The position numbers were made by a program, and so were the translations under genes. Shown here one piece after another: positions 5,590 through 20,958 of a DNA stretch of 26,159 nucleotides. Below the pieces are notes generated by a model. That model saw nothing but the letters and a program-made list of their open reading frames with translations, had not been told where the DNA came from and searched no databases. Numbering within the stretch: position 1 is the first letter of the stretch; each line of letters starts with the position of its first letter. Source of the stretch: a virus; IMG/VR virus record IMGVR_UViG_3300031688_000116, positions 1-26,159 of that record; one strand, written 5' to 3'.

Positions 5590-7016
5590 TGAAACGTATA
5601 ATACAAAAGTACCAAGAGGGTGGAGTTGTTAAACCTGGAGTGGCAACTGGGCTACCTGCAGGTGGTAATGCAGCCGACGCTATTCAGAGTTATCTAAGTG
5701 GGTATGTATCTGGCCCCTTGTCTTATACTGGTGTCAGGAAGAGTTATGTTCCAGATTATCGTGAACTTGCAAAAAAGCGTAAGGAAATAAGGGATAAGAC
5801 AACCAATACAACTACAACAGGGACTAACCCAACAGTAATCAATGAGACTGAGGCTGACGTGTTTGATGTTCATGGTACAGGCTACACTGATAGTGATGTT
5901 TATTACTCAACTGACTCCTTTGGTACTCAAGTACCATACACAATAGTGGAGCCTACGGATGTACGTCCACCGGGATATGTTGATAATACACCTTCAAACT
6001 TCCCAGAGGTTCGGGACTATTATGACTCAAGTCCAAGGGGGACAGGTGGCCCTGCCGTATCGTATAGCAGTGATGGCACATCAACTGATCTTGGGTTTAC
6101 CCTTGGCCCCGCAGTTCTTGGTGGTCGTGGAACGTATGTACCTAGTAAAGCAACCCCTTCTCCTGGTGGTTGGAACCCCCACACCTCTACCTACGTTAAT
6201 AATTACAGCTCAGATCCCGCCTTTGTTACTAATGCTGACGGTATTTCTGGCGGAAGAACAGGACACGCTACAGATAATGACAGCCCCGAAAAAGAGGCAC
6301 GTTTAGCCGCACTTGCCGCAGAACGCAATGCAGCATATAACCTAGCTAATCCAGTAGCCCCATCAGCACCTAAATCTTATTTAGTTTATAACAATGATGA
6401 GCGTTGGGATATTATGCTTAACGGAGTTAAGGTTGGCGAAGACTCAAACGCTGACGATGCTAGAGAAAGACAGGCTAAAATTGATTCTAATTCCCTGTTG
6501 AATTATAACAACGGTTTGAACAACGGTGGACCTATCTCACTAAACCCTAGTCGTGTTCAGAAATATAATAATGGAAGTACTGGTGGGGTAGCGATAGCTA
6601 ACTCTCGTCTCAGTGAAGAGGAAATACGTCAACGTCAACTGATGCAATCACCACTACCACAGGCACAGGCAAGTCCTCTCTCAGCTATCGGATCTAAACT
6701 TGCTATGAGTGCTATTGATAAAGGTATTGGATCTGCAGCTTCTTCTATGGCGGCTAAGGAAGGTCTCATGGGAACTCTTGGAAATGCCTTAGGTGGAAGT
6801 GCTGCTACTGGTGCTGCTACTGGTGCTGCTACTGGTGCTGCTACTGGTGCTGCTGGTGCAGGGTTAATGGCAGCTCTTGGACCTATCGGTATTGGTCTTG
6901 GCCTAGGTAAACTGTTTGGAGTATTCAACGATGGGGGCAAGGTCCCTTGCTCTTGTGGCAAAACAACATCTTGCAAATGTGCAAAAGAAATTAAGTCACC
7001 ACTATCAGGAGAATGA
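5589..7016 (+). CDS. Virion-type protein with glycine-zipper hairpin and C-terminal Cys cluster, function unknown
   Basis: A 475-aa protein with GGAGG 6 bases before its ATG, which overlaps the upstream stop. Residues 1-400 are low-complexity, Tyr/Asn/Gly/Pro-rich and probably disordered, with short Y-x-x-G-G or N-N-G-G turns (YQEGG, NNGG). From about residue 362 it becomes Ala/Gly-rich: a fourfold Ala-Ala-Thr-Gly repeat, then AALGPIGIGLGLGKLFG, a glycine-zipper segment able to enter membranes. The last 30 residues hold CSCGKTTSCKC (CXCX5CXC), which could bind a metal ion or be redox-active. The gene ends one base before the start of the transglycosylase gene. I do not recognise a named family; an ejection or membrane-channel role is inferred from the hydrophobic end and the neighbours. 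Confidence 0.6.
   Translation: MKRIIQKYQEGGVVKPGVATGLPAGGNAADAIQSYLSGYVSGPLSYTGVRKSYVPDYRELAKKRKEIRDKTTNTTTTGTNPTVINETEADVFDVHGTGYTDSDVYYSTDSFGTQVPYTIVEPTDVRPPGYVDNTPSNFPEVRDYYDSSPRGTGGPAVSYSSDGTSTDLGFTLGPAVLGGRGTYVPSKATPSPGGWNPHTSTYVNNYSSDPAFVTNADGISGGRTGHATDNDSPEKEARLAALAAERNAAYNLANPVAPSAPKSYLVYNNDERWDIMLNGVKVGEDSNADDARERQAKIDSNSLLNYNNGLNNGGPISLNPSRVQKYNNGSTGGVAIANSRLSEEEIRQRQLMQSPLPQAQASPLSAIGSKLAMSAIDKGIGSAASSMAAKEGLMGTLGNALGGSAATGAATGAATGAATGAAGAGLMAALGPIGIGLGLGKLFGVFNDGGKVPCSCGKTTSCKCAKEIKSPLSGE
6799..6858 (+). repeat. 12-bp tandem repeat in coding sequence
   Basis: Four perfect copies of GTGCTGCTACTG run from 6799 to 6846, followed by one diverged copy (GTGCTGCTGGTG) to 6858. In frame they encode Ala-Ala-Thr-Gly units just before the glycine-zipper segment. 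The 12-base period keeps the frame, so copy number can change by slippage without breaking the protein. Confidence 0.9.
7007..7012 (+). promoter_or_regulatory. Ribosome binding site that fixes the transglycosylase start
   Basis: AGGAGA lies 5 bases before the ATG at 7018. An earlier in-frame ATG at 6916 would add 34 residues inside the upstream gene and has no such site, so 7018 is the better start. Confidence 0.7.
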
Positions 7017-7017
7017 T

Positions 7018-10000
7018 ATGATCGATAAAACAGATCCAACTAATAGGGATACTGTACCTGCGATGCTAACACCTGGGGAATTTGTCCTCAACAAGGAAGC
7101 ATCAACTATGTTTGCTCCTGTGATAGAGCAAATGAATGACGCAGGGCTACAGCATCGTGCAATGAAAAACATGGGTGGTGGTATTCAAAATTATAATAAA
7201 GGTGGTTTTGCGTGGCATAAAAACTACACATCTGAGGTTGAAGCTGCCATCGTTTTAGCGGCAGCTAAGTACGGTATTGATCCATTAACTCTTAAAACCA
7301 TTGTTTACCTTGAGTCTAGGGGAAATCCTGAAGCCCAATCAAAACAGTCATCTGCTGGTGGCATCATGCAATTTATAGATGATACAGCTAAATCTTATAA
7401 TCTTGAAAACCGTTTTGATGTTAATGAAAGCCTAGATGCAGGTAGTAAACTGTTGACAAATAATGCTTCTCATTTAAGAAGTGTCCTTGGTCGTGAACCG
7501 ACACCAGCGGAGATATATCTAGCACATCAACAAGGAGCAACAGGTGCTTTACGTTTGTTAAAAGATCCATCTATTAATGTACTAGATGTAGAAAACATGA
7601 CAGAGAGTAAGGTTATTAAGAACGGCGGTAATGTTAACATGACTGCTGGTGAGTTTTCAAACATGTGGCTGAAAAAAGCCAATGATGCTGCTAACTTTAT
7701 TGGAGGCGATGACACAAACACACCCACACAACCTACAACCCAAGCAACATCTACAGAACCAGTACCAAGATTTTTTAGTGGCGGTGGTAAGGATGGTGAA
7801 GGTAGTTTTGGAATGATTGGTGATTTCTTTGGTGGAGTTACAACACCATCTGTAGCACCTATGGTTTCTATCCCTCCCCAAATGAGACCTAAAGATCTAG
7901 CTCCTCAAATGGTAGCTGGGATAACAGACTCGATGTCATCTTCACGCCCTCAGATGAGACCCAACACTCAAGTAGATCCCTTAGCTGTCGAACAGGCAGT
8001 TATGCAGGCCAGTGTACCACAAGTACAAGCAGCACCCCCAGTACCTACAAGCTTCAATGAAGCCTTTAGGGATGCACGAGCTGACATGGGAGCGGGAGGT
8101 ATCTTTAACTTTCGTGGTAATAATTATACTACTGATTATGCTGAAGAGAAGGATATGGTAACTGCTAACATGGGTGGTGTTGTCTATCTGAATGATGGAA
8201 GTTCGGAATCAAGTTTGATGCCAGATGTTAACAGTGATGAATCATTACTACAAGGTTCTTCCGGAAGCGTTGACAGGGCTTCTCGCATGTCAACTCAAGA
8301 GATTATGTCTATGTACCCTGTACCTGAAGTTCAAGGTATTCCAACAGAACTTCCCCCAGCACCCAGACCAACCATGCTTGGTGGTCAGCTTTACTACTTA
8401 AATGGTGATGGTTTTGTTACAGATACAAATGGTAACCCTGTTCAAGACCCTGAGATTGGTGCTGCTGTTCAAGATAAATTGAATTACAGTGAAAAAGAAT
8501 CTGCAGCTAATGCACAAGCATACAACGAATCTATAGCTCAACAGGATGTACTCAATGGTACTAACTTACAATCGGTAAACCCAAGCTATGATTCAATGCG
8601 TCAACAGCAAGAGTCTAATGCTACTGAGGCAGAAAAGATCAGAGCGGAGATTGCACAGATTGATATGGAACGTCAAGCTGCTAATGACGAGTTTAATAAG
8701 AAGCAGTCAGAAGTTGTACCACCATTAGAGCGTGGTCAGAGCGTGTTTGTAGAAGGTTTTGTACCTCCTGTAGCAAACAGTGGTAAGGGTGGTGGTCCTG
8801 CGTATGTTCCCCCTAAGCCCTCTAATGCGACATTTGAAGGTAAGTCTCTTGAAGAACTTTACAACATGTTTGCAGTCAATGGTGGTCAGGGGTCTCGTGC
8901 AGATCCCGTATTAGGTCAAGCTTTAATGGCGGAAATTGAGGCTCGTGAATCGGCAGGGGAATCTTTTAATGTTTATGATACCTCTTTACATAACGCTGCT
9001 GCTTTGTATGGTGGTGGTAACAGGCCCGAAGTTGAGCGTCAACAATTTGTTGCCGACACTTCTTCAAGGAACGCTGAGAAATCAGCTTCTATATTAGCTG
9101 TACAACAGGCTGAGTTACAGGCTAAGCTTGATGCAGGTACGGCTACACAGCTAGATATTGACAGGTTTGAGAGAAAACGGAATCAGAATAAGACAGTTCA
9201 GGAAACTGCAACCAGAGACCAGGAAACTGTAAGGCTAACGTCTGAACAACAAGCTGCACTACTTGCGCCTGCTACAGATATTGAAGCCGCCAATGTTGAG
9301 GCCCTTGAAGCTAAGCGAAAAGCAAACAGTGAACGTCTCCAGTCGTATGATCCTGTTACGGGTACTTATAGTAAGCCTATAAAACCTAAAGGCCCAACCG
9401 CTGATACAGTTGAAGCTGCAATTACCGAGTTAGAAAAAAACCCTAAAGAAGTGACAACAACCACACCTGATCAGGACAATGCTACTAGAAAGGCATCTGC
9501 TGAGATAGATCCTAAGGGTGGTGATGGTATTACACCTGAAGTTAAAGGTGCTATGTCTACAATCAAAAGCGTCTTCGGGGATCTATTTGATACTAAAGAA
9601 CTCATGAGAGCTGCTATTATGTATCTTGGTGGTCGTGCTACTGGTCTGTCTGGCAACCAAGCTCTTGCCTTTGCTGGTAAGACATATTTAGCTAGGGAAG
9701 AAGCTAAGGGTGCTCGTACTCAGAAGTTTGTTGATAAACTTATCTCAGATGGTAAGCATAAGATGGGGTCTATTGCGGCTTATAGAAAGTCTCTTGATCC
9801 TAATGATCTCAAACTTATTGGTTTAACTCTTGCAGAAACTGGTAACACTGGTACCTATTACGCATCCAATGCTGCTGGTAGTTTTGTAGCATTGCAGCTT
9901 AAGGAGATGAAGGGGTCTGATGATTCTGTTTATCTTCAAGATTCTAATGGTAAGGTATATGATCCAGCTCAGTTGCATCAAGATCCTAAGAGAGTCAAGG

Positions 10001-10659
10001 GTACTCCGGAGTTTGATACTGCTCTTGCAAGTCAGATCTCTCTTTACAAAGACACATTTGATGAGCTTAGGTTGCAAGGTGGCATTGTTACAAATAAGAT
10101 GGATGGTAAGCCAGCAGTGTACAAGACTGACTTGAAACCATCAGTTGTTGCAGCTGACACTGCGGCTTGGGCTTTAAGGTATGGTGTGCCTCTTCAAATG
10201 GTACCTGGCCTAATGACAGAAGCTTACAATCTAGCTATAGGTGGTAAGGATATTAATGGTAACCCAAAGAGGGCGCAGAAAATAGAACCATATCTCAACC
10301 AGTTGTGGATAACTCAAAGTGCTGGTGATCCAAATAACTTTAAGATTGGTAATGATGATAAGGTAAAGTTTGTTGAGACATCTACAGTTAGTTCTTGGGT
10401 TTCAAACATACACAATCAAATGAAGAAGGTTAACCCACAGTTTAATGAGGTTACTCCAATCAGGTTCTCAACTTGGCTACGTCAGACTGACATCTCTGGT
10501 AAGTGGTCGTTGCCTGAAGAGCAAGGTGGGTTGTCTCAAGAAGCAAGAAATGCGATTACAAAACGTGGAAATGCTGTAGGTAAAAGTGGATATATGCAAT
10601 ATATCTTAGAGGAAGCTGCTAAGAACTATGAGAAAACTCTAACTAATCCTACTACTTAA
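7018..10659 (+). CDS. Internal virion (ejection) protein with lytic transglycosylase domain
   Basis: A 1213-aa protein. Residues 10-45 hold the module DTVPAMLTPGEFVLNKEAS, common in tape-measure and other phage virion proteins. A soluble lytic transglycosylase-like domain follows at about 72-190: catalytic Glu99 in YLESRGNP, the GGIMQF turn (114-119) and YLAHQQGA (167-174) in place of the usual A-Y-N-A-G. It would cut peptidoglycan between MurNAc and GlcNAc so that DNA can cross the cell wall, as T7 gp16 does. Residues 250-640 are low-complexity with a PQMRP repeat and a charged coiled-coil stretch near 535-565. The C-terminal 400 residues are mixed alpha/beta without a recognised domain. The ORF could start 102 bases earlier, but the AGGAGA site supports 7018. 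It is the first of three giant proteins likely ejected together. Confidence 0.8.
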   Translation: MIDKTDPTNRDTVPAMLTPGEFVLNKEASTMFAPVIEQMNDAGLQHRAMKNMGGGIQNYNKGGFAWHKNYTSEVEAAIVLAAAKYGIDPLTLKTIVYLESRGNPEAQSKQSSAGGIMQFIDDTAKSYNLENRFDVNESLDAGSKLLTNNASHLRSVLGREPTPAEIYLAHQQGATGALRLLKDPSINVLDVENMTESKVIKNGGNVNMTAGEFSNMWLKKANDAANFIGGDDTNTPTQPTTQATSTEPVPRFFSGGGKDGEGSFGMIGDFFGGVTTPSVAPMVSIPPQMRPKDLAPQMVAGITDSMSSSRPQMRPNTQVDPLAVEQAVMQASVPQVQAAPPVPTSFNEAFRDARADMGAGGIFNFRGNNYTTDYAEEKDMVTANMGGVVYLNDGSSESSLMPDVNSDESLLQGSSGSVDRASRMSTQEIMSMYPVPEVQGIPTELPPAPRPTMLGGQLYYLNGDGFVTDTNGNPVQDPEIGAAVQDKLNYSEKESAANAQAYNESIAQQDVLNGTNLQSVNPSYDSMRQQQESNATEAEKIRAEIAQIDMERQAANDEFNKKQSEVVPPLERGQSVFVEGFVPPVANSGKGGGPAYVPPKPSNATFEGKSLEELYNMFAVNGGQGSRADPVLGQALMAEIEARESAGESFNVYDTSLHNAAALYGGGNRPEVERQQFVADTSSRNAEKSASILAVQQAELQAKLDAGTATQLDIDRFERKRNQNKTVQETATRDQETVRLTSEQQAALLAPATDIEAANVEALEAKRKANSERLQSYDPVTGTYSKPIKPKGPTADTVEAAITELEKNPKEVTTTTPDQDNATRKASAEIDPKGGDGITPEVKGAMSTIKSVFGDLFDTKELMRAAIMYLGGRATGLSGNQALAFAGKTYLAREEAKGARTQKFVDKLISDGKHKMGSIAAYRKSLDPNDLKLIGLTLAETGNTGTYYASNAAGSFVALQLKEMKGSDDSVYLQDSNGKVYDPAQLHQDPKRVKGTPEFDTALASQISLYKDTFDELRLQGGIVTNKMDGKPAVYKTDLKPSVVAADTAAWALRYGVPLQMVPGLMTEAYNLAIGGKDINGNPKRAQKIEPYLNQLWITQSAGDPNNFKIGNDDKVKFVETSTVSSWVSNIHNQMKKVNPQFNEVTPIRFSTWLRQTDISGKWSLPEEQGGLSQEARNAITKRGNAVGKSGYMQYILEEAAKNYEKTLTNPTT

Positions 10660-10680: not shown

Positions 10681-13600
10681 ATGGGACTATTAGATGAAGC
10701 TCTAGCGTACACCCCAGATAATATTGACGGGACAGACCTAAGCTTTGTGGATGGAGACACAGCGTCTAACGCTAGTGGTTCTAAAAGCTACCGACTGGAA
10801 GGGATTGAGGCGGCTGAAGTAGAGAAGATCATCCACGGAAAGTATAAACCAGGTGAAGCTGGTGGTGCTGCTACCACTGACATCATGAGGGAAACTGCCA
10901 ACAGGTTAGGGTTTACTAATGTTAAGCTCAAGTTTAACCCCGATGGTTCCCCACAGATGGATACACTTGGTAAGCGTCAGATGTTTGATATGGTAAATGA
11001 CGAAGGTGACAGCTATAAAACTTCAATGTTAAATGCTGGAGCCTTCGACATTGGCCTATACAATAGCAACATGGATATCCTTAATAGGGATATCTATGAA
11101 GCTCAACGAACTGAAGATCGTTTGTCTGGGGATGGTACCCTCAACGACTTTGACATGGCTGCTCTGGATATCAGGATGGCTAGTGCTGAAGAGGGTGCTA
11201 AGACTCTTGGGTTTAAGAGAACCCTTGAGACTGAAAGGGAACGCTCAGAGTACATAAACTACTTCATGCAACAAGGCATGTCTCGTGATCAAGCTACAAG
11301 TGAGATGGGGAAGTACTTTAATAATAGTGTGGCTATCCGTAAGGCTGGTGTTTCTATTAACAATGAATCCCTAAACCCAATATCAGACAACTGGAATAAA
11401 GGTTGGACCAGTGTTGGAGAGAGTGCCTTTGGTGTTCTTAACCTCGGTGGTTACAAGTCTGGTGCAGAAGGTGTAGAAACTTGGGGAAAGAATGGTGTTC
11501 GTAGGCAGCAGGCTAAGCTCGCAGCTTATGGTAACACACTTAACAACTACAAAGACATTGAAAGTGTTGGTCAAGTGTTTGAGTACCTTGGTAACATGAT
11601 GGCTATGTCCCTCCCATTCATGGCGGTAACAGCTGCAGCAACAGTTGCAGCTCCTGTTACTTTTGGAGCATCGTACTTAGTACCTGTTAGTATGTTCACA
11701 GGTCAGGTTTGGAATGAGATGGAGGGGCCTAACGAGGACAAGTCAGCTGCTGCTGCTATTGGTGGTGGTATTACCATGACTGTACTTGATAGGCTTGGTC
11801 TTAAAGGTCTTGGTGGTGCGTCTAAAAGCCCAGTCCAGGCTATCCAAGAAGCTGCTAATAAGTTAGCTAAGGAAAGGGGAATACCTTTAGGTGAAGCTAA
11901 GGGTGTTGTTAAACAAGAAGTAGATGTCGCTGTTGCAGAGTTTGCAGAACAAGTTGAAGCAATGGCTAAGAACCAACTCAAAGCTAAAGCTACAGCTATG
12001 AGGGTTATGAAAACCATTGGTGTTGGTGCTACAGCAGAGGGACTGACAGAGGTTGGTCAAGAAGCTATTGGATATCTAGCAGCTGTTAAGGGTTCTAATA
12101 AAGTATTTGATGCTGAAGAGTTCCAAGAACGTATAACCAATGCTGCTCTTGCAGGTACTGCGCTAGGCGGTGTGTTCTCCGCTCCAGGAACTGCTAAAGA
12201 TCAGTTGGGATGGATGGATGCAGCTGCAAGATATGGTGAAGCTGCAACACCCTCAGAGGTAGAGGGATATACAGCCATAGAAATATCTAATCACGGAACT
12301 GTTAGGACTAATGCTCAAGTCTTACTAGATCAGAAAAGAGAAATCAAAAACCTTAAAGACAGAGGTGTTGGTGTAGGTTTTAATGTTGTAGACAGAGACC
12401 TTGAACACAAGGAAAAGAATAAAGGCAAAACCACTATGGAACGTGCATCAGAAACTGTGATGGATGCTCATAAACTTTGGAGGGCATCTGTTACTAGTGC
12501 AATTCCAAAAAGAATATTAGATAAGTCAGCATCTGCACGAGCTATGGCATCTTTATTAGGTGGCGTGTTGACCCCCTTACATGGGGGCTCTGGTATAGAG
12601 GCGGCTCAACACCACTTGGTAACTGCCTATAAGAACTACATCTCTGAGCCTGAACCTTTCTATAAGTCTATGGGATTGATGAGTGTTGCTGGTGTTTTTA
12701 GATCTTCAAGCAAGCGTAAGATCAGTAATGATATTTATAAAATATTAAATGATCCAAAGCACCAAACGAATGGTCAGTTTGATGGGAGTAAAGTGTCTAA
12801 TGATCCTGCTTACTGGGCTAACTTTAGTGTTGATATTAAAAACAGATCTAGAATTGTAAACCTTGGTAATCAAATGGTAAACTTAGGTGTCACTATGCGT
12901 AAGGATCAGGTGATTGCTGGTGCTAACATGGGCGACATTGATAACTATCTGTTTAAATACAAAGGTCTTGATAAGAACGCAGTCTCTAAGGATCAGAAAC
13001 TATTTAAGTCTCTCCTGATGTCTGAGTTTAATATGTCTGCGGCAGAAGCCCAGAGGATAACGGATGAGGTCATAGATAATCCACTTGTGTCTGATCTTTC
13101 AGATGTCCTTGGAGAAAACAATGAGGTTATTATATCTAACGTTGGTTCATTAAACCCAAGTGCACACAAGAAAAGAACCATTGGCTTATCTGAAAACTCA
13201 AAGTTTAATGATGCTGGTTTCTTTGAGTCTGATATCTTTGCTAACATAGCTACTGCAGCGAAGTCTGCAGCTAGGTACTCAACTCAAATGGAGTATGTAG
13301 GTAAGGATGCAGAGATTATATCTCACCTACTAAACAAGATGCAAGCTGAGGGTGTTTCAGATGCGGATGTCAATAAGGTGGCATCAGATGTTAAAGATAT
13401 CTTAGAGGCTATGGCTGGTAACTATAAGAGACCTACCACTGAGATGGGTAAGAAGCTTATGCGATTCCAAAAGAATGTAATGTTCTGGATGACACTATCT
13501 GCTTTACCCCTTGCAACATTTTCTTCCTTGCCCGAAATGGCTATGACTCAGGGGGCATTAACATCTGAGCAGATTTATGGGAAGAATGGAAGTATCAGAA

Positions 13601-14730
13601 CATTTGCTGCGGAAGCTGTTGCAGCTTTCTTACCTGCCCTGAAGAAGGTAGAGAATGAGACAGATGAGGGTATACTTAAGATAGTTACTAGGAGTAAGGG
13701 TCAAGAAGTCTTCCAGCAAGTAGGGCTTGGGCAATGGGAAGTGGGTGCAGCTACCACATCAGGTGTTAGTATGGCATCTGAAGGTCGTCAGCAGATGATG
13801 CAAGCTTTCTTTAGGGCTATCGGTCTTACGCAGTGGACAGACTACACTCGTTCTGTTCGTGGTGCTATGGCATTTGACTTCATATCATACAACTCTAAGC
13901 TTGTTGCTATGAGAGATCTTGGTTATACTAAAGCAACACGAGAAGCACAAGAGGCTGAACAGAAACTTAGAAGTTTGGGGATACCTGTAGAACAATTTGC
14001 AGAGTTAATGTATCAGTACGAACTCTATGGTGATATTGCTATGGACACTGAAGTTAAGAAACAATTCTGGGAACAGACTATTACTGAAGCTTCCTATAAC
14101 TTTATCAACCAATCAGTAGCACTTCCAGGTGCAGCCAATAGACCTTTGATCTATCAGGATCCTAGGTTTGCTTTGTTCACACAGTTCCAAGGTTTTATAT
14201 CTACCTTCACAGCGAACCAACTACCTCGCATGTGGAATGATTATGTCAAACGAGGAACTCCGACTATGAGATACAATACTTTTGTATTGATGGCAACCAT
14301 GATTGCTCTTGGGTTCTTTGCTCAAGGTATTAAAGACTCTATTAAGTTTGACGATGATGATGATGGTGGCACATTTGGTAATCCATACTTGGATAAACCT
14401 GAGTACATTCGTCGTGGTGTCATGGCTTCTGGATTATTCGGTACAGGTGAACGAGTAATAGACATGTTTGCTCCTATCTATGGTCAACGATCTAATGGTG
14501 TTGGTGGCTGGTTGTATAATCAAACCACTGGTGAAAGCCCAACTGTAGGGTATGTAGCTAGGGGTGGTGAAGCAGCATTGAAGCTGGCTCAAGGTGATGT
14601 TGAGGGTGCTTTGTATAATACACTCAAGATGTCTCCTGGTATTGGACCATTTACAGATAAGAATAAAAGCCTAGCTAGTCTTCTAACTGGTGGTGGTTGG
14701 AACTACAAGGACAATAAGGAGAATCAGTAA
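10681..14730 (+). CDS. Large internal virion (ejection) protein with N-terminal staphylococcal-nuclease-like domain
   Basis: A 1349-aa protein with AGGAG 7 bases before its ATG. Residues 20-127 resemble staphylococcal nuclease: DGDT at 24-27, YRLEGIEAAEV at 37-47, DTLGK at 94-98, then a strand-helix ending SMLNAGAF. Matched to the known active site, Asp21 is D26, Arg35 is R38, Asp40 is E43, Glu43 is E46 and Arg87 is K98. The body is long and helical. Hydrophobic stretches lie at about 303-340, 934-950 and 1201-1215, and the C-terminal part (FINQSVALPGAANRP, FTQFQGFISTFTANQLPR) looks like the conserved end of large internal proteins of marine podoviruses. Role: component of the ejection conduit, possibly acting on nucleic acid. 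The family name of the body is not certain; its stop overlaps the next start. Confidence 0.65.
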   Translation: MGLLDEALAYTPDNIDGTDLSFVDGDTASNASGSKSYRLEGIEAAEVEKIIHGKYKPGEAGGAATTDIMRETANRLGFTNVKLKFNPDGSPQMDTLGKRQMFDMVNDEGDSYKTSMLNAGAFDIGLYNSNMDILNRDIYEAQRTEDRLSGDGTLNDFDMAALDIRMASAEEGAKTLGFKRTLETERERSEYINYFMQQGMSRDQATSEMGKYFNNSVAIRKAGVSINNESLNPISDNWNKGWTSVGESAFGVLNLGGYKSGAEGVETWGKNGVRRQQAKLAAYGNTLNNYKDIESVGQVFEYLGNMMAMSLPFMAVTAAATVAAPVTFGASYLVPVSMFTGQVWNEMEGPNEDKSAAAAIGGGITMTVLDRLGLKGLGGASKSPVQAIQEAANKLAKERGIPLGEAKGVVKQEVDVAVAEFAEQVEAMAKNQLKAKATAMRVMKTIGVGATAEGLTEVGQEAIGYLAAVKGSNKVFDAEEFQERITNAALAGTALGGVFSAPGTAKDQLGWMDAAARYGEAATPSEVEGYTAIEISNHGTVRTNAQVLLDQKREIKNLKDRGVGVGFNVVDRDLEHKEKNKGKTTMERASETVMDAHKLWRASVTSAIPKRILDKSASARAMASLLGGVLTPLHGGSGIEAAQHHLVTAYKNYISEPEPFYKSMGLMSVAGVFRSSSKRKISNDIYKILNDPKHQTNGQFDGSKVSNDPAYWANFSVDIKNRSRIVNLGNQMVNLGVTMRKDQVIAGANMGDIDNYLFKYKGLDKNAVSKDQKLFKSLLMSEFNMSAAEAQRITDEVIDNPLVSDLSDVLGENNEVIISNVGSLNPSAHKKRTIGLSENSKFNDAGFFESDIFANIATAAKSAARYSTQMEYVGKDAEIISHLLNKMQAEGVSDADVNKVASDVKDILEAMAGNYKRPTTEMGKKLMRFQKNVMFWMTLSALPLATFSSLPEMAMTQGALTSEQIYGKNGSIRTFAAEAVAAFLPALKKVENETDEGILKIVTRSKGQEVFQQVGLGQWEVGAATTSGVSMASEGRQQMMQAFFRAIGLTQWTDYTRSVRGAMAFDFISYNSKLVAMRDLGYTKATREAQEAEQKLRSLGIPVEQFAELMYQYELYGDIAMDTEVKKQFWEQTITEASYNFINQSVALPGAANRPLIYQDPRFALFTQFQGFISTFTANQLPRMWNDYVKRGTPTMRYNTFVLMATMIALGFFAQGIKDSIKFDDDDDGGTFGNPYLDKPEYIRRGVMASGLFGTGERVIDMFAPIYGQRSNGVGGWLYNQTTGESPTVGYVARGGEAALKLAQGDVEGALYNTLKMSPGIGPFTDKNKSLASLLTGGGWNYKDNKENQ
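10738..11061 (+). other. Staphylococcal-nuclease-like (OB-fold) domain in the 1349-aa protein
   Basis: Domain extent estimated from motif matches: DGDT, the RLEGIEAAE strand and the DTLGK block, in the order and with roughly the spacing seen in staphylococcal nuclease. The calcium ligands and one catalytic Arg are kept; the second Arg is Lys. Activity is uncertain. Confidence 0.6.
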
Positions 14731-17700
14731 TGGCAATAAACACAACAACTGGATCTGTAGCTAAAGGGGGGACATCAGTCTCCCCTGTTGACTTCATTAA
14801 AGATCAGCTGAATATGGAAGAAGGGGGAGATCAGCAGGTAGCACCAGATGTTACCCCTGTCCAAGGTGGTGCTGGGTTAGTAGAAGAGGCGGCTTCGTTT
14901 CGTGTAGACCCTGAACTAGAGTCCACAGTAGATACCTTACAGGATCCCAGTGGTTTACCTTCTGGGTTGGAGCAACTAAATCAGGTTGTACCTAGCAATC
15001 AAATGGAAGGGTTTGTTCCTTCAATGGGAGCAAATATCAAAGCCTTAAAGGAAACTAATGGTTCTAACTATGGTGATTCTGCGTTTCAACAAAGGACTGA
15101 AAACTTTGGCAACTTAGTATTGGCAGGTAACATTGGTGTTAACTTAGCGCCTAACAGTGCTGGTACGTCTGCTTTTGAACTCACTAAGTCACTCTCAGGA
15201 CCTGACCTAGCTGGTGCAATGTCTGGTGTGTTTGAAGGTAAAAAAACTAGTCTTTTACAAGCTATCAGTAGGGCAGATGGGTTAGTGGATGTTGAGTCAT
15301 CTTCTACAAAGAGTGGGTATAAGACAGTTCCAAGTAAGTTGTATGCTCAAACAATGGGTGCAGTTACTGAACAGTTCTTTGCTAATGAGGCTGCAGGTTT
15401 AAAGTTTGAAGATGACCCGTTTACTGATGAACCTGCTACGTTACTTCCAAGCACGGAGTCAGCTAAGGATAATAAGGTTAAGGTTTTAACACAGGCTAAG
15501 AACAATCAGCAGCTTGGTCAAGAAATACACCTACAATACTTGCGGCTTCTCAGGGATTCTTTAAAGGGACAGGGGATACCAGAGACAGATCCACAGTTTG
15601 AACAGCTTAGTTTAAATGCTCCAGATAGACTTCCAGGTATGGAAGCTGAGATCCTTGGAGCTGCTGCTAAAAGTATTTGGGCAGATGCCAATCCAGAACT
15701 TGTGTATAAGCCCGATGTTAAAGCATTTGATCAGACTACATACGCACTTACCCACAGGGGTGAAGACGCCTTGGAGATGAGTTCTAAGTATCGTAATCAA
15801 ATCTTTCCAAAGGTTGAGGTTAAACCACTCAGTGCTCCTAAAGCTTTGGTTGGTACTGACATAGGTAAAAACTACTTACGACAGGCTTCTGGCTACAAGA
15901 AAGGTATGAAGTTTAATAGTGAACTAGAGGAAGCTATTAGTAATCTAGAACAGGTTGCCAATGTGGTTGACTCTCGTAGACTTAAGATACTATTAGCAAC
16001 TAGCCTTCCAGCAATAACAGGTAGGGACGGTAAAGATTTTTGGGGTGCTGATATTAATAATGTTGGTAATAAAAAACTAGATTCTTTCAATGCAGCACTG
16101 ATGGTTCAAGAACAAAGAATAGCTGATGGTACTTTAACTAGGAGTTCAGGGGAGGACTACAACCCTGAGGGAGAGTTGGAGAAGATACGTAGGACACTGG
16201 CACAAGAGATAAATGGTTTGGTTGAGTTTAGGAACAAGGCATTTTATTTAACATATAGTGTCCAAGGGTTTCAAGGACGTATTACTCCACAGCAAACATA
16301 TGTCAACCCAACTACAGCTAAGTCTGCTAGGTTTGTAACACGCTCTGCAACACCAGCCATTATTAAATCTGGTAACAGACAGGAAAGAAACCTACGTCAG
16401 ATGTATGCAATGATTTTGTTAAAGGTGGGTGACGATGCACTACCACCTCGTAGGGATGCCCTATTAGAGTCTAACAAGGGGATACTTCGTGCGATGGGTA
16501 TCAGATTAAGGGAGGCCCTTACAATGACGGATGCTCAGCTAGAGGCTGTGTCTACTGCTATTGAAAACAAAGTACCACTAGACTCCCCACAGTTTCCAAA
16601 GTTTAATGGCTTAAACCTAGACCCAAACAACGAAGCTGATGCTAAGATAATCCGTCAGATACAAAGCAAAAAGGAGGATGGTAACTTATTCATAGACACC
16701 ATAATAGATTTTGCTAACTACATGGACTATAAGGATAGGCCAGATGGTGATGGACAATTCCTATCTTCTGTTAATGCTTACATGGATGGCAAGACCAATG
16801 GCCCTGCAAGTAATGCTATGCAACTTGGTGACAAGAGGACTGCGTTCTTCACAGGTGTAATGCGAACTCAAGATGAAAAGCTTTTGGATTCTGGGGATCT
16901 TAGAGACTCGTTGATTAGATTAGCTACTCAATCTATCATAGATAAACCCTTTAATCTTGAAGATGATTTAAAACAGCCAGCTGATACAGTGTCTAAGGAA
17001 GTGTTTAAGTATCGTGAGCTTGCCAAGTTAGTGATCATGACTTGGGGATATGGTAAAGAGCTTACTAGCTTTGGTCCATTGATTGAAGAAGTTGTTGCTC
17101 TTATAACAGCAGAAAAACAAAGGGTGTTATCTGAAGGACCTTCTAAAAACAGTCTAAAAGATATTGATGCAGCGCACGATTATCTAAGTGCTATAGATAC
17201 CATAAATAGTTTAGACTATACAAATGAGAGTGTAGGTTCAATGGCAAAAGTCCGTGATCAGATGCTTACTAAGTACAGCGAATCTGTTAAGGGTATACTT
17301 GCTAATGGTGCAATGGAAGCAAGGTCTCTTATGAGAGCCGTAGCTGCTGAAACTGCCATCATGAACTTACCTTTTGTATTTCAAACACCCTCTGGTATGA
17401 TTACACACGTTGGTGGTATGGCAAGTTTAGGATCTGAAGGCGCTAACCGATCTACATACAGGAGTATAGACCCTAACACAGGTAAGCTCAGAAGCCCAAC
17501 AGAAGTTATACATTATGAATCTGAGTCCACTGCTGCTGCTGAACGTATCCGGAATGATGTGGCAATACCTGCAGAGTACGCCTATGGCGGTGCTCCTGTT
17601 GTCCCAATTCAAGGTATCGATGCAGCTGTGGTAGCAAGGACTGCCTCTGGCAAGTCTTGGTCTGCACTTCAGAAAACACCTGGAGCTCCTTATCTTCACA

Positions 17701-18344
17701 CTATCTATGATGCTTTTAAGGTAGATGCTAATGGTTACGATACAATCCTAAGGGAAGTTAATACCAACTGGATGGATATAACTATTGGCACCGACAAAGA
17801 CAAAGGTTGGAGTTACTTAGAGGAAGCTTTGAGATCTCTTAAAGAATCTAATAGGATCTTTGACAAAGCATTACAGGGTAGGAGTAATGATGATGTTCTA
17901 ACTACTAATGAAAGAGCATTGATGGATTGGTTGTTGACAGGTGATCTTAAGAAGAGCCCCGATCCTAGGACTGGGGTTTGGTCAGAGAGGGTTGTGATAC
18001 CTAACTTTAAAAACAGAATCTCCAAGTACAACCAACTCCTTAATCAAAAGGTTAAAGGTGGTGGTGGTTTTGATGAGCCTGCTATTATTTCTGACATTGT
18101 AGTTAAGCAAATGTCTAAGGTTGGTTATGATGTTTTAAGCCCACCCCAATCTCCGACTGTCGGGCATCTTAAAGAGTTTAGAAATCTTTTAAGGACCCAT
18201 CTTAATACTATTAGTCGTCTCGAAAAGAGCATAGCTGAGACTAATAAAAATAAGAAGGAACTCAGGAGAGAGATGATGAATAGTGGTATGATGTATACAG
18301 ACCCTGAGGGTAATACATTTCCACTGCAATACTACGCACACTAA
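14730..18344 (+). CDS. Putative virion-packaged single-subunit RNA polymerase (compact N4 vRNAP-like)
   Basis: A 1204-aa protein, start overlapping the previous stop (TAATG) with AAGGAG upstream. Four family signatures appear in order. Around R517, FYLTYSVQGFQGR matches the T7 region ending DWRGR425, followed by a fitting YVNP and SATPA. Motif A is MDGKTNGPASNAM, with D686 as the metal ligand (T7 D537 in DGSCSGIQH). Motif B is R762-x3-K766-x7-Y774-G775, with the spacing of T7 R627, K631, Y639 and G640, and the shared MT. Motif C is TIYDAF with D994 (T7 D812 in HDSF). A PIQGIDA segment before it replaces the T7 HSxD. Residues 1-120 look disordered. T7 gives distances of 112, 94 and 181; here they are 169, 80 and 228. 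Its place after ejection proteins suggests it is packaged and injected, like N4 gp50 (about 3500 aa) but far smaller. Polymerase kinship is strong; packaging and activity are inferred. Confidence 0.75.
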   Translation: MAINTTTGSVAKGGTSVSPVDFIKDQLNMEEGGDQQVAPDVTPVQGGAGLVEEAASFRVDPELESTVDTLQDPSGLPSGLEQLNQVVPSNQMEGFVPSMGANIKALKETNGSNYGDSAFQQRTENFGNLVLAGNIGVNLAPNSAGTSAFELTKSLSGPDLAGAMSGVFEGKKTSLLQAISRADGLVDVESSSTKSGYKTVPSKLYAQTMGAVTEQFFANEAAGLKFEDDPFTDEPATLLPSTESAKDNKVKVLTQAKNNQQLGQEIHLQYLRLLRDSLKGQGIPETDPQFEQLSLNAPDRLPGMEAEILGAAAKSIWADANPELVYKPDVKAFDQTTYALTHRGEDALEMSSKYRNQIFPKVEVKPLSAPKALVGTDIGKNYLRQASGYKKGMKFNSELEEAISNLEQVANVVDSRRLKILLATSLPAITGRDGKDFWGADINNVGNKKLDSFNAALMVQEQRIADGTLTRSSGEDYNPEGELEKIRRTLAQEINGLVEFRNKAFYLTYSVQGFQGRITPQQTYVNPTTAKSARFVTRSATPAIIKSGNRQERNLRQMYAMILLKVGDDALPPRRDALLESNKGILRAMGIRLREALTMTDAQLEAVSTAIENKVPLDSPQFPKFNGLNLDPNNEADAKIIRQIQSKKEDGNLFIDTIIDFANYMDYKDRPDGDGQFLSSVNAYMDGKTNGPASNAMQLGDKRTAFFTGVMRTQDEKLLDSGDLRDSLIRLATQSIIDKPFNLEDDLKQPADTVSKEVFKYRELAKLVIMTWGYGKELTSFGPLIEEVVALITAEKQRVLSEGPSKNSLKDIDAAHDYLSAIDTINSLDYTNESVGSMAKVRDQMLTKYSESVKGILANGAMEARSLMRAVAAETAIMNLPFVFQTPSGMITHVGGMASLGSEGANRSTYRSIDPNTGKLRSPTEVIHYESESTAAAERIRNDVAIPAEYAYGGAPVVPIQGIDAAVVARTASGKSWSALQKTPGAPYLHTIYDAFKVDANGYDTILREVNTNWMDITIGTDKDKGWSYLEEALRSLKESNRIFDKALQGRSNDDVLTTNERALMDWLLTGDLKKSPDPRTGVWSERVVIPNFKNRISKYNQLLNQKVKGGGGFDEPAIISDIVVKQMSKVGYDVLSPPQSPTVGHLKEFRNLLRTHLNTISRLEKSIAETNKNKKELRREMMNSGMMYTDPEGNTFPLQYYAH

Positions 18345-18404
18345 AAAAAAAACAAGGCCCCCAAGAGAACCATAAAGGTTTTCCTGGGGGCCTTTTTATT
18401 TTTA
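18345..18404. terminator. Bidirectional intrinsic terminator between the converging blocks
   Basis: An 18-base stem at 18354-18371 pairs with 18377-18394 around an ATAAA loop; the core is GGCCCCC/GGGGGCC. A poly-A run (18343-18352) lies on one side and T-rich sequence (18393-18403) on the other, so each strand has a stem followed by U residues. There is one A/C mismatch and one G/T pair on the plus strand; on the minus strand their roles swap, keeping the stem stable both ways. Confidence 0.9.
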
Positions 18405-18683
18405 TTTAAGCATACCTTGTTTTGCAAGAAGCTCACGATACTCCTTCATCTGCTCATGCTTTCGTTGTTTTGCTTTTTTGTCATCTATAACACCACTTGA
18501 TAGATCTTCTGCAATACCTATGTCTATGATACGTGGCATGAGATCTTTTGTGTAAGCCAACTCTGGATCTAGAGATGATTTAGTTAGGGGGTTAGTGTTC
18601 CAATCAGAAATGAACTCATCATCATCTACTTGTACACCCCGAAGTGCTAGTTGGTTGTATGATTTACGCGAAGAAGTAATCAC
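18402..18683 (-). CDS. Small protein of unknown function, last gene of the minus-strand operon
   Basis: A 93-aa (GTG start) or 96-aa (TTG at 18692) protein. The AAAGGAGA at 18693-18700 is one or two bases from the TTG but about 10 from the GTG at 18683, so GTG is preferred. The start lies within the 3' end of the RNA polymerase gene. The sequence has a mixed N-terminus with an acidic patch (VDDDEF), a middle with IIDIGIAEDLSSG and a basic, Lys/Gln-rich helical C-terminus from about residue 68. No Cys, signal peptide or membrane segment. I recognise no family. Its coupling to the polymerase gene hints at a related role, but this is only positional. It ends directly at the shared terminator. 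Confidence 0.7.
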   Translation of the reverse strand: MITSSRKSYNQLALRGVQVDDDEFISDWNTNPLTKSSLDPELAYTKDLMPRIIDIGIAEDLSSGVIDDKKAKQRKHEQMKEYRELLAKQGMLK

Positions 18684-20958
18684 TGTTTTCAATCTCCTTT
18701 ATATCTAAGCTGCCTAATGTAGGTTGTTCCACATCGTCTTCAGCATCTGTAATGAAGTTACGTATAACCTCAAAGTAATTATCGTAGTCGTACATGCGTA
18801 TGAATACTTGCTTGGTTAGGTTTAGAAGTTTATTCACATCACTGGCATGAGTACTGAAGCTATCGTGCACAGCTGCAAAGGAACCATCCCACTCAGAGAT
18901 AACTAAAGCCATATGACTTGCATCCATAGAGTGTATGTAGTTAGGTGACATGCCACAGATGAAACCCCTCCTGTCTGGCATACGTGTAGGTACAAGGGCT
19001 ACGTGTGTAACCTGACCCGTCTTATTCCCATACCCTTTGATACGTCCTCTGGCTTTCCTATCTTGCATGATCCACTTCTCATAGATCACATGGAACCCTG
19101 AAGGTGTACTCCACTCAATCTTATCTTCACCCTTACCATGCTTTAGACTTGTGGTGAACTGTTTAAGTTTAATCACAACATCATTAAGCTCATAGAGATC
19201 TTCATCAGTCTTGAAGTTCTTCTTCATAAGAGTGTCACGTATCTTAGATAGGCTACGATACTCAGTGTTAGCTTCGTATCCTTCTGAGTCTACCTTTACA
19301 TGCGTACCTAATTGATACATCGCTAGGTTCTGTAGGTAACTCATAGTAGATAGTGGGCCTGGACATACCTTATCAATTGCTTTGATCAGCAGTTTAGATA
19401 ACTTAGTACAGTCATCCTGTGTGATGTCATACTCTGTGTGGTAGTCCTCTGACTTACAATCAAAGAACATGTTCTCAGCGATCTTCTTAGAGCCTGCTGA
19501 GTATGCCCTAGTCATGGAGCCACGCTTGGATATACCCTTACGTATACTCTTCATAGGCATACTAGACAATATACCATTAAGCCTATCATCTTTACACAGA
19601 TTAATCATCTCCTTGGCTGTCTGCACATAGAAGTCTTTCTGTATCTCTGAGGGTATTAGACCAACCAACTCACCAGTCTGTTCATCCTTAGAGATTGCTC
19701 CGAGGTGTTGCCAACCATTGTTACTTCCATCAATAGGTATAGGTAGGCTAGTCATGTGTATACGATTGTCTCTGTAAGCACATTCAAATTCATACCACTC
19801 AACACAAGCAGCAAGGAAGGATACTTTCTTCTCAGCTTGACCAGAGAACTGTGAGTTCTTACCGGCCTCTATGATATCATCCATGTACTCATTGGTCCAT
19901 ATGATACGATCTTCTAGGGTCATCTTGTCAACAGAGATGTTGTCTAACCCTTCACTCTCAAGGTGTCCTTTGTAATCAGATGTACACCAATCAGGTATCT
20001 CATCGATGTTGTAAGACATGTTGAAGACAGACGCTGTGTGTATAGCTAACCACTGTAACCCACTCTCAGTCATGGGCTTTGAGTGTTGGAACTTAAACAA
20101 TCCCCTAGCTAGATCAGATCCTTGGAAGTTCATGAAGCTCTCACAATAGTAGAACCTACCACGATAGTCCACATCCAAGTACTGATAGAAAACCTCTAGC
20201 TCTGATAGCTTACGTGCCTTCTCTGATATGAATGCCCACTCAACCATCTTACTTCTACGCTTGAGTTCCTTAGCATCATTGTCTTTGATAGGGTCAGTAG
20301 ATAAGAACAACTCTTTGTTCTCAACCATTGCATTGTATACTGGTTTGTTTATCTTCCAAGCAGTCTGCTGTAGTTTGTTAAGGGCTTGTACCCAAGGTGC
20401 ATAAGGGTCTATTGGATCACCCTCTACCCTACCTTTGATCACTGGCCTGTGTACCCCATTGATCTGTTGTATCATACCAGATATATCTTTGGGTCGTATG
20501 ATACTGGTAGAGGCTAAGGGAAAACTCCCACCTCTCTCAGGTATCACACCTAACTCATACCACCTATGGGATGCAGACACCACATGGCAGCTGTTACGGG
20601 TCTTAGCATAGGACAAGTCGATAAACCCTAGGTTGTATAGGGCTTCTACGAACAGGTCTCCTATGGACACTACAGAGCCCCAGGGAAGGGGCTCTCGGTC
20701 TAGTTCTTTACCCACACTCTGACCTATCTTACTAGATGCATTGGTGAGTGTGGTGGTACCAGCTGGGCTTGAACTGGTATCCTTAGTGAATTGCATTTGA
20801 AGTATAGAGATACTCTTAACAACGTAGCCTTCCATACGTTCACTATAGTTTCCAGACAATCTCATCAAGAGCCCAGCAAGGTGGGGTCTTCGACGTGCAG
20901 GACTTACACCATCTACCCTCTTGACAAGGTAATCAACTATCTCTTGGAGTGCTGACAT
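18664..20958 (-). CDS. T7-like single-subunit DNA-directed RNA polymerase, N-terminally short
   Basis: A 764-aa phage RNA polymerase that would transcribe phage genes in the cytoplasm. Signatures in order: D264-YRGR268 (T7 D421 to R425), motif A D410-GSNNGWQH (T7 D537), motif B with K478, MT and Y486 (T7 K631, Y639), HSMD at 676-679 and motif C H698-D699-SF (T7 D812). T7 RNA polymerase is 883 aa; the region before the GR motif is about 157 residues shorter here, so the N-terminal domain that helps bind promoters in T7 is much reduced. The Gly after the motif B Tyr is Ser (AYSAGSKK), and T7 R627 aligns to Lys474. AGGAG precedes the ATG by about 5 bases. It lies 8 bases after the primase-helicase gene and overlaps the next small gene. 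Intracellular middle or late polymerase is the likely role. Confidence 0.9.
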   Translation of the reverse strand: MSALQEIVDYLVKRVDGVSPARRRPHLAGLLMRLSGNYSERMEGYVVKSISILQMQFTKDTSSSPAGTTTLTNASSKIGQSVGKELDREPLPWGSVVSIGDLFVEALYNLGFIDLSYAKTRNSCHVVSASHRWYELGVIPERGGSFPLASTSIIRPKDISGMIQQINGVHRPVIKGRVEGDPIDPYAPWVQALNKLQQTAWKINKPVYNAMVENKELFLSTDPIKDNDAKELKRRSKMVEWAFISEKARKLSELEVFYQYLDVDYRGRFYYCESFMNFQGSDLARGLFKFQHSKPMTESGLQWLAIHTASVFNMSYNIDEIPDWCTSDYKGHLESEGLDNISVDKMTLEDRIIWTNEYMDDIIEAGKNSQFSGQAEKKVSFLAACVEWYEFECAYRDNRIHMTSLPIPIDGSNNGWQHLGAISKDEQTGELVGLIPSEIQKDFYVQTAKEMINLCKDDRLNGILSSMPMKSIRKGISKRGSMTRAYSAGSKKIAENMFFDCKSEDYHTEYDITQDDCTKLSKLLIKAIDKVCPGPLSTMSYLQNLAMYQLGTHVKVDSEGYEANTEYRSLSKIRDTLMKKNFKTDEDLYELNDVVIKLKQFTTSLKHGKGEDKIEWSTPSGFHVIYEKWIMQDRKARGRIKGYGNKTGQVTHVALVPTRMPDRRGFICGMSPNYIHSMDASHMALVISEWDGSFAAVHDSFSTHASDVNKLLNLTKQVFIRMYDYDNYFEVIRNFITDAEDDVEQPTLGSLDIKEIENSDYFFA
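18693..18700 (-). promoter_or_regulatory. Ribosome binding site of the small terminal gene
   Basis: AAAGGAGA on the minus strand, inside the end of the RNA polymerase gene. Its distance (about 10 bases) supports GTG at 18683 over TTG at 18692 as the start. Confidence 0.55.

Follow-up and report, generated by a model that had tools for sequence, protein, structure and literature searches.

A compact predicted RNA polymerase of the N4 virion type encoded opposite a T7-type RNA polymerase in marine podophages

The stretch of DNA analysed here (hereafter the window) comprises positions 1 to 26,159 of the IMG/VR virus record IMGVR_UViG_3300031688_000116. Its forward strand carries a structural/ejection-like operon, in which a gene for a 584-aa structural/tail protein and several smaller genes precede those for a virion protein with an SLT lytic transglycosylase domain (6916-10659; about 1215-1247 aa, the start codon being uncertain) and an ejection-like virion protein of 1349 aa (PHROG 6958; 10681-14730). 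The last gene of the operon (14730-18344), the subject of this work, encodes a protein of 1204 aa; it starts with the ATG at 14730, overlaps the preceding gene by 1 base and ends with the stop codon at 18342-18344. All three of these large proteins are devoid of cysteine. A replication module lies tail-to-tail with this gene on the reverse strand, beginning with a T7-type RNA polymerase (18664-20958; 764 aa, 10 cysteines) and continuing with primase/helicase, RusA, HNH, exonuclease and DNA polymerase genes.

Two minor features of the locus are also worth recording. A 96-aa ORF on the reverse strand (18402-18692) overlaps the T7-type polymerase gene at its end, and a 96-aa counterpart is found at the same place in three relatives (G009, G010 and G012). 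Positions 2-1507, within the late operon, encode part of a ribonucleotide reductase (RNR) large subunit; at the same place Roseobacter phage CRP-7 has two separate RNR fragments (gp44 and gp46), a split perhaps due to an insertion.

Taken alone, the 1204-aa protein yielded no useful match in PHROGs (at E 0.01), in Pfam, including the RNA polymerase family PF00940, or in a phmmer search of the PDB. Its match to PHROG_414 (RNA polymerase), at 0.028, did not pass the threshold. The sole PDB match, factor H-binding protein (0.011), lies outside the motifs described below and was rejected as a chance hit. The only phage match obtained with tblastn (E 0.4) was to Pseudomonas phage Arace01, in motif A of the protein annotated there as a virion RNA polymerase.

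Relatives were collected through the neighbouring gene. A search of IMG/VR with the T7-type polymerase gave 80 loci, and every one with enough flanking sequence contains an ORF of about 1160-1260 aa, convergent with and immediately downstream of the polymerase gene, beyond which lie an ORF of 1300-1400 aa and then another large ORF. A reverse search, based on the motif A and motif C patterns of the new family, gave 67 loci. The 21 of these that were examined and had not been used before encode proteins of 1128-1332 aa where complete, and all are paired with a T7-type polymerase. The family therefore spans about 1100-1330 aa, its genes lie tail-to-tail with the T7-type polymerase gene, and in every relative with enough flank its member is the final gene of the ejection cassette. 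Cysteine is absent from 37 of 37 family members and from each of the 21 further loci (one partial). The first-pass annotation had likened the protein to the N4 virion RNA polymerase (vRNAP), at about one third of the length, and had noted a T7-like polymerase in the same genome; both statements hold for the window and for the whole family.

For profile comparisons, we used a reference built from the catalytic domains of 15 Schitoviridae vRNAPs, including N4 residues 998-2103, in which the known catalytic residues were checked to align. A profile of the four sequences closest to the window protein matched this reference with 90% probability (E 1.5e-6), and the 37-sequence profile with 97.8% probability (E 1.1e-12); these E-values refer to a single comparison and not to a database search. 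Control profiles (10 column-shuffled, one reversed and two of other window proteins) gave E-values of 0.15-0.99. The comparison with N4 vRNAP had been named beforehand as a possible refutation of the polymerase assignment, and it found the family. When compared with the T7-type polymerases that these phages encode, the family profile reached only E 0.1. Since the match is to the N4 type and not to these enzymes, we assign the protein to the N4 vRNAP lineage and reject the idea that it is a duplicate of the T7-type polymerase encoded beside it. Elsewhere, PHROG_414 was matched by 20 of the 37 members (best 9e-8) and Pfam RNA_pol by the ORF of one relative (6e-6), and an hmmsearch of PDB sequences with the family profile found no polymerase. 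Sequence comparison thus identifies the 1204-aa protein as a single-subunit RNA polymerase of the N4 vRNAP lineage.

The catalytic motifs are in agreement with this assignment. Residues 512-534 (QGFQGR...NPTTAKSAR; 16263-16331, forward strand, as for all motifs below) contain R517, K531 and R534, which the profile alignment places on R424, K437 and R440 of N4 mini-vRNAP. Motif A (YMDGKTNGPASNAMQLG, residues 684-700; 16779-16829) contains D686, aligned with N4 D559, within the DGxTNG(P) signature common to N4-type vRNAPs; it reads DGKTNG in the window protein and DGxT[N/H]G throughout the main family. Motif B (RELAKLVIMTWGYG, residues 762-775; 17013-17054) places K766 on N4 K670 and Y774 on N4 Y678. 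A QGID sequence (residues 961-964; 17610-17621) lies upstream of motif C (IYDAF, residues 992-996; 17703-17717), whose D994 corresponds to N4 D951 and T7 D812. The two catalytic aspartates, the motif B lysine and tyrosine and the GR-region arginine are therefore in the order of single-subunit polymerases and in register with N4.

The first-pass annotation had listed G516-R517, D686-G687-x3-G691, R762-x3-K766-x7-Y774-G775 and D994-A995-F996, and all of these residues are at the positions given. Its claim of a complete core motif set is borne out for R517, D686, K766, Y774, G775 and D994, which are invariant in 33 of 33 main-family sequences, but not for R762, a column that holds R in 24 of them, K in 7 and another residue in 2; many distant members have an arginine one residue upstream. 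The other columns invariant in all 33 are K531, R534, G687, T689, G691, Q961, D964 and N1011, among which K531, R534, Q961, D964 and N1011 were absent from the earlier list. Over all 37 aligned sequences only 12 columns are invariant, R517, D686, Y774, G775 and D994 being among them. Conservation of this kind over the 33 main-family sequences, whose identity to the window protein falls to about 20%, excludes a chance occurrence of the motifs.

The predicted structure points in the same direction. AlphaFold2, given the 37-row alignment and run for residues 105-1204, produced a model with a mean pLDDT of 83.2 and a pTM of 0.83. All 50 PDB matches listed are mitochondrial, T7 or N4 polymerases (E 4e-14 to 9e-12); the highest query TM-score among them, a moderate 0.46, belongs to the complex of N4 mini-vRNAP with its promoter hairpin (E 2e-12). 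Among the matches listed from viral predicted structures are T7-type polymerases and vRNAPs. In the model, D686 ends a palm strand, R762 and K766 belong to a helix that stops just short of Y774, and a turn between two strands holds D994, a placement expected for single-subunit polymerases. As far as the model goes, the second possible refutation named beforehand, a fold at odds with a polymerase site, also came out in favour of the polymerase: the predicted fold is the cupped hand of this class, with the motifs on the expected elements.

With fold and catalytic site computed, we infer that the protein is catalytically active. One might instead suppose that it is an ejection protein derived from a polymerase, no longer catalytic and retained only as part of a conduit or of a DNA-pulling device. 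Large alpha-helical proteins of an ejection cassette could indeed retain a fold without its activity, and the variation at R762 would fit such a history. However, the catalytic aspartates, K766, Y774, R517, K531 and R534 remain unchanged in 33 of 33 sequences, and invariance of catalytic residues at about 20% identity implies selection on the active site. We consider a loss of catalysis highly improbable.

As the window ends before the early region, candidate promoters were sought in five relatives whose long contigs (57-60 kb) are nearly complete. A search of the whole contigs for repeated hairpins gave one family, with a 9-bp stem, the loop ACRGG and the 3' flank T-AAAAGA (layout AATNNGNCC-ACRGG-GGNCNNATT-T; early hairpin sequence AATCCGACCACAGGGGTCGGATT). 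The five genomes contain 18 such hairpins in the forward orientation (3-4 in each) and none in reverse. Every one belongs to the early module and its strand, 6.6-16 kb upstream of the gene for the T7-type polymerase, and most precede the start of an early gene by a short distance; Markov-resampled genomes contained 0 or 1 in total. Compensatory changes were found in 5 of the 9 stem pairs (18 double-changed cells; none of 500 shuffles scored as high), and sliding the pairing partner abolished this signal. In IMGVR_UViG_3300001355_000077, whose vRNAP is 88% identical to that of the window, one hairpin occupies the same place, which in the window's own genome would fall just past the window's end.

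A second motif, TTCTCTAAGTTCCTTATAGGGA, has an end that resembles the T7 promoter (TATAGGGA). Its positions are conserved and for the most part precede leftward genes, e.g. terL and the 584-aa tail gene. One copy faces the early module, so that both enzymes may act on early genes. The natural assignment would be that the hairpin is used by the vRNAP and the T7-like motif by the T7-type enzyme.

It could be argued that the virion-borne polymerase is real, and that the hairpins are terminators, RNA-processing sites or regulatory RNA, the early genes being read from host or T7-type promoters. The T7-like promoter that points into the early module would suit this explanation, as would the terminator-like character of 1 of the 6 forward hairpins in the two early regions scanned. 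On the other hand, in the early regions sigma-70-like sites were not above chance (8 vs 18.3 and 26 vs 29.0), the loop and the 3' flank are conserved, and the hairpins keep to the early strand, most of them shortly ahead of early genes. Their layout also resembles that of the three hairpin promoters of N4 (PMC4496689), which are expected before gp1, gp2 and gp15; in N4 itself we found short hairpins just before these three genes. A role other than that of promoters is therefore one that we regard as rather unlikely.

The same hairpins bear on the question of whether the polymerase travels in the virion. An active but unpackaged enzyme, i.e. a second intracellular polymerase acting late in infection, would be compatible with a gene lying in a late-direction operon. 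Nevertheless, the nearest kin of the protein is N4 vRNAP and not the intracellular T7-type enzymes, and its freedom from cysteine in every member is shared with the ejection-like neighbours (none in the two large upstream proteins) and with the N4-type vRNAPs (0-1 in the 15 reference proteins), as opposed to the 10-14 cysteines of the T7-type polymerases. The gene closes the ejection cassette in all relatives that could be judged, and a polymerase made late would be useless at hairpins preceding early genes unless it was carried in. Given their location, the candidate early promoters would be open only to an enzyme made in advance; this, the lineage, the position at the end of the cassette and the lack of cysteine all point to carriage in the virion. 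An unpackaged enzyme seems improbable to us.

Based on these observations, we consider it likely that the window encodes a compact N4-type vRNAP that is carried in the virion, uses early hairpin promoters and is succeeded by the T7-type polymerase. We infer the following order of events. The vRNAP would be made late, as the product of the last gene of the structural/ejection operon, would be packaged with the two large cysteine-free ejection proteins, and would enter the host with the DNA. There, a small number of hairpin promoters would direct its transcription of the early module; the T7-type RNA polymerase would be expressed as a result and would in turn transcribe the late genes, that of the vRNAP included, from T7-like promoters. 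It is also probable, though we say this with more reserve, that such a two-step relay is a property of this marine podophage family, a virion polymerase of about 1200 residues acting first on hairpins and the T7-type enzyme afterwards, and that host RNA polymerase is possibly dispensable.

The likeness to N4 vRNAP (gp50; mini-vRNAP 998-2103) and other Schitoviridae vRNAPs thus extends from the catalytic residues, the DGxTNG motif A and the single-subunit fold to the near absence of cysteine, membership in the ejection cassette and probable hairpin promoters in the early region. The differences are in scale and in partners. Reference N4-type vRNAPs have 2842-3820 aa (PMC10654107), whereas the compact family lacks the giant N- and C-terminal domains of the N4 enzyme, which has about 3500 residues and in which the role of the outer two thirds is open (PMC12633501). 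The compact vRNAP is paired with a single-chain T7-type polymerase, while N4 uses a heterodimeric RNAPII and the host enzyme; the hairpins have a 9-bp stem and a 5-nt loop, as compared with 5-7 bp and 3 nt in N4; and genome size, about 55-60 kb in the complete relatives, is a further point of difference. Because it has 1204 aa, and not some 3500 residues with large terminal domains, we classify the window protein as a compact variant of the N4 vRNAP lineage, reduced nearly to the catalytic domain, and not as a typical member. With the T7-type RNA polymerase of its own genome (PF00940) it shares superfamily, fold and catalytic motifs, and it differs from that enzyme in its profile score, cysteine content, place in the late ejection cassette and want of a Pfam RNA_pol match.

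Other phages offer partial parallels. Roseobacter phage CRP-7 is the only cultured phage that we found with this layout; its authors described the T7-type polymerase only (PMC6918029), and gp33 (QBQ72826, 1235 aa) is annotated as hypothetical. This protein is encoded convergently with the T7-type polymerase, has no cysteine and aligns with the N4 profile in the motif C region only (E 8e-4). It differs from the window protein, to which it has no significant BLAST match, in having R at the position of K766 in motif B. On sequence grounds it is likely a member of the family; an AlphaFold2 model of a CRP-7-type relative from 7 sequences had a pLDDT of 37, and no claim is drawn from it. Alteromonas phage R22Y, a podovirus, has an annotated vRNAP of 2083 aa and a second RNA polymerase (PMC11705849). 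Its vRNAP is likewise below the usual length, but it is 1.7 times longer than the window protein, and its authors compared the phage with schitovirus V19. In StenR_269, a large cysteine-free protein was proposed as a vRNAP without support from homology (PMC10747016). In the part of the literature that we searched, neither a vRNAP of about 1200 aa nor a division of hairpin and T7-type promoters between two polymerases is described. A survey of N4-like viruses dropped vRNAP-like proteins of <2500 aa, a step that removed T7-like polymerases (PMC10654107), and compact vRNAPs would therefore also have been dropped.

A natural vRNAP reduced almost to its polymerase domain shows what is dispensable, and such an enzyme should be easier to study. 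The family offers a testable promoter code for each of two polymerases. If the relay is true, it joins the strategies of N4 and T7 in one genome, shows that a virion polymerase can do without the giant domains of the N4 enzyme, and would account for the onset of early transcription in marine phages of a widespread group.

Several other hairpins were seen in the relatives. A left-end repeat, CAGCAAT...ATTGCTG, was considered as a general promoter and dropped, being present in only 2 of the 5 complete relatives. This second hairpin repeat (CAGCAAT-N7-ATTGCTGTTTCATAAACAC) stands ahead of several short genes at the left end (L126 16913 and 17344; L124 65 and 512; L123 1416 and 1767). Repeated early hairpins were not found in G022 or CRP-7. 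More distant relatives have short repeated hairpins of their own, most of which lie a little ahead of early genes (L136 12371, 12870, 13458 and 17862; L226 704 and 8140; the early regions of L221, L222, L223 and L140). They are suggestive of promoters and were set aside as evidence, as most occur in two copies and late regions of other relatives gave single pairs. An Rfam search of one early region (L124) gave no match. A conserved array of 3-4 consecutive hairpins of 7-8 bp lies in a non-coding stretch of the early region, shortly after a promoter-like hairpin (L124 3348-3439; L118 9810-9869; L122 19120-19179; L128 19396-19455). Among the more distant relatives, G023 has hairpins with loops of 3 nt, including a TTC, the loop also found in N4 ahead of gp1.
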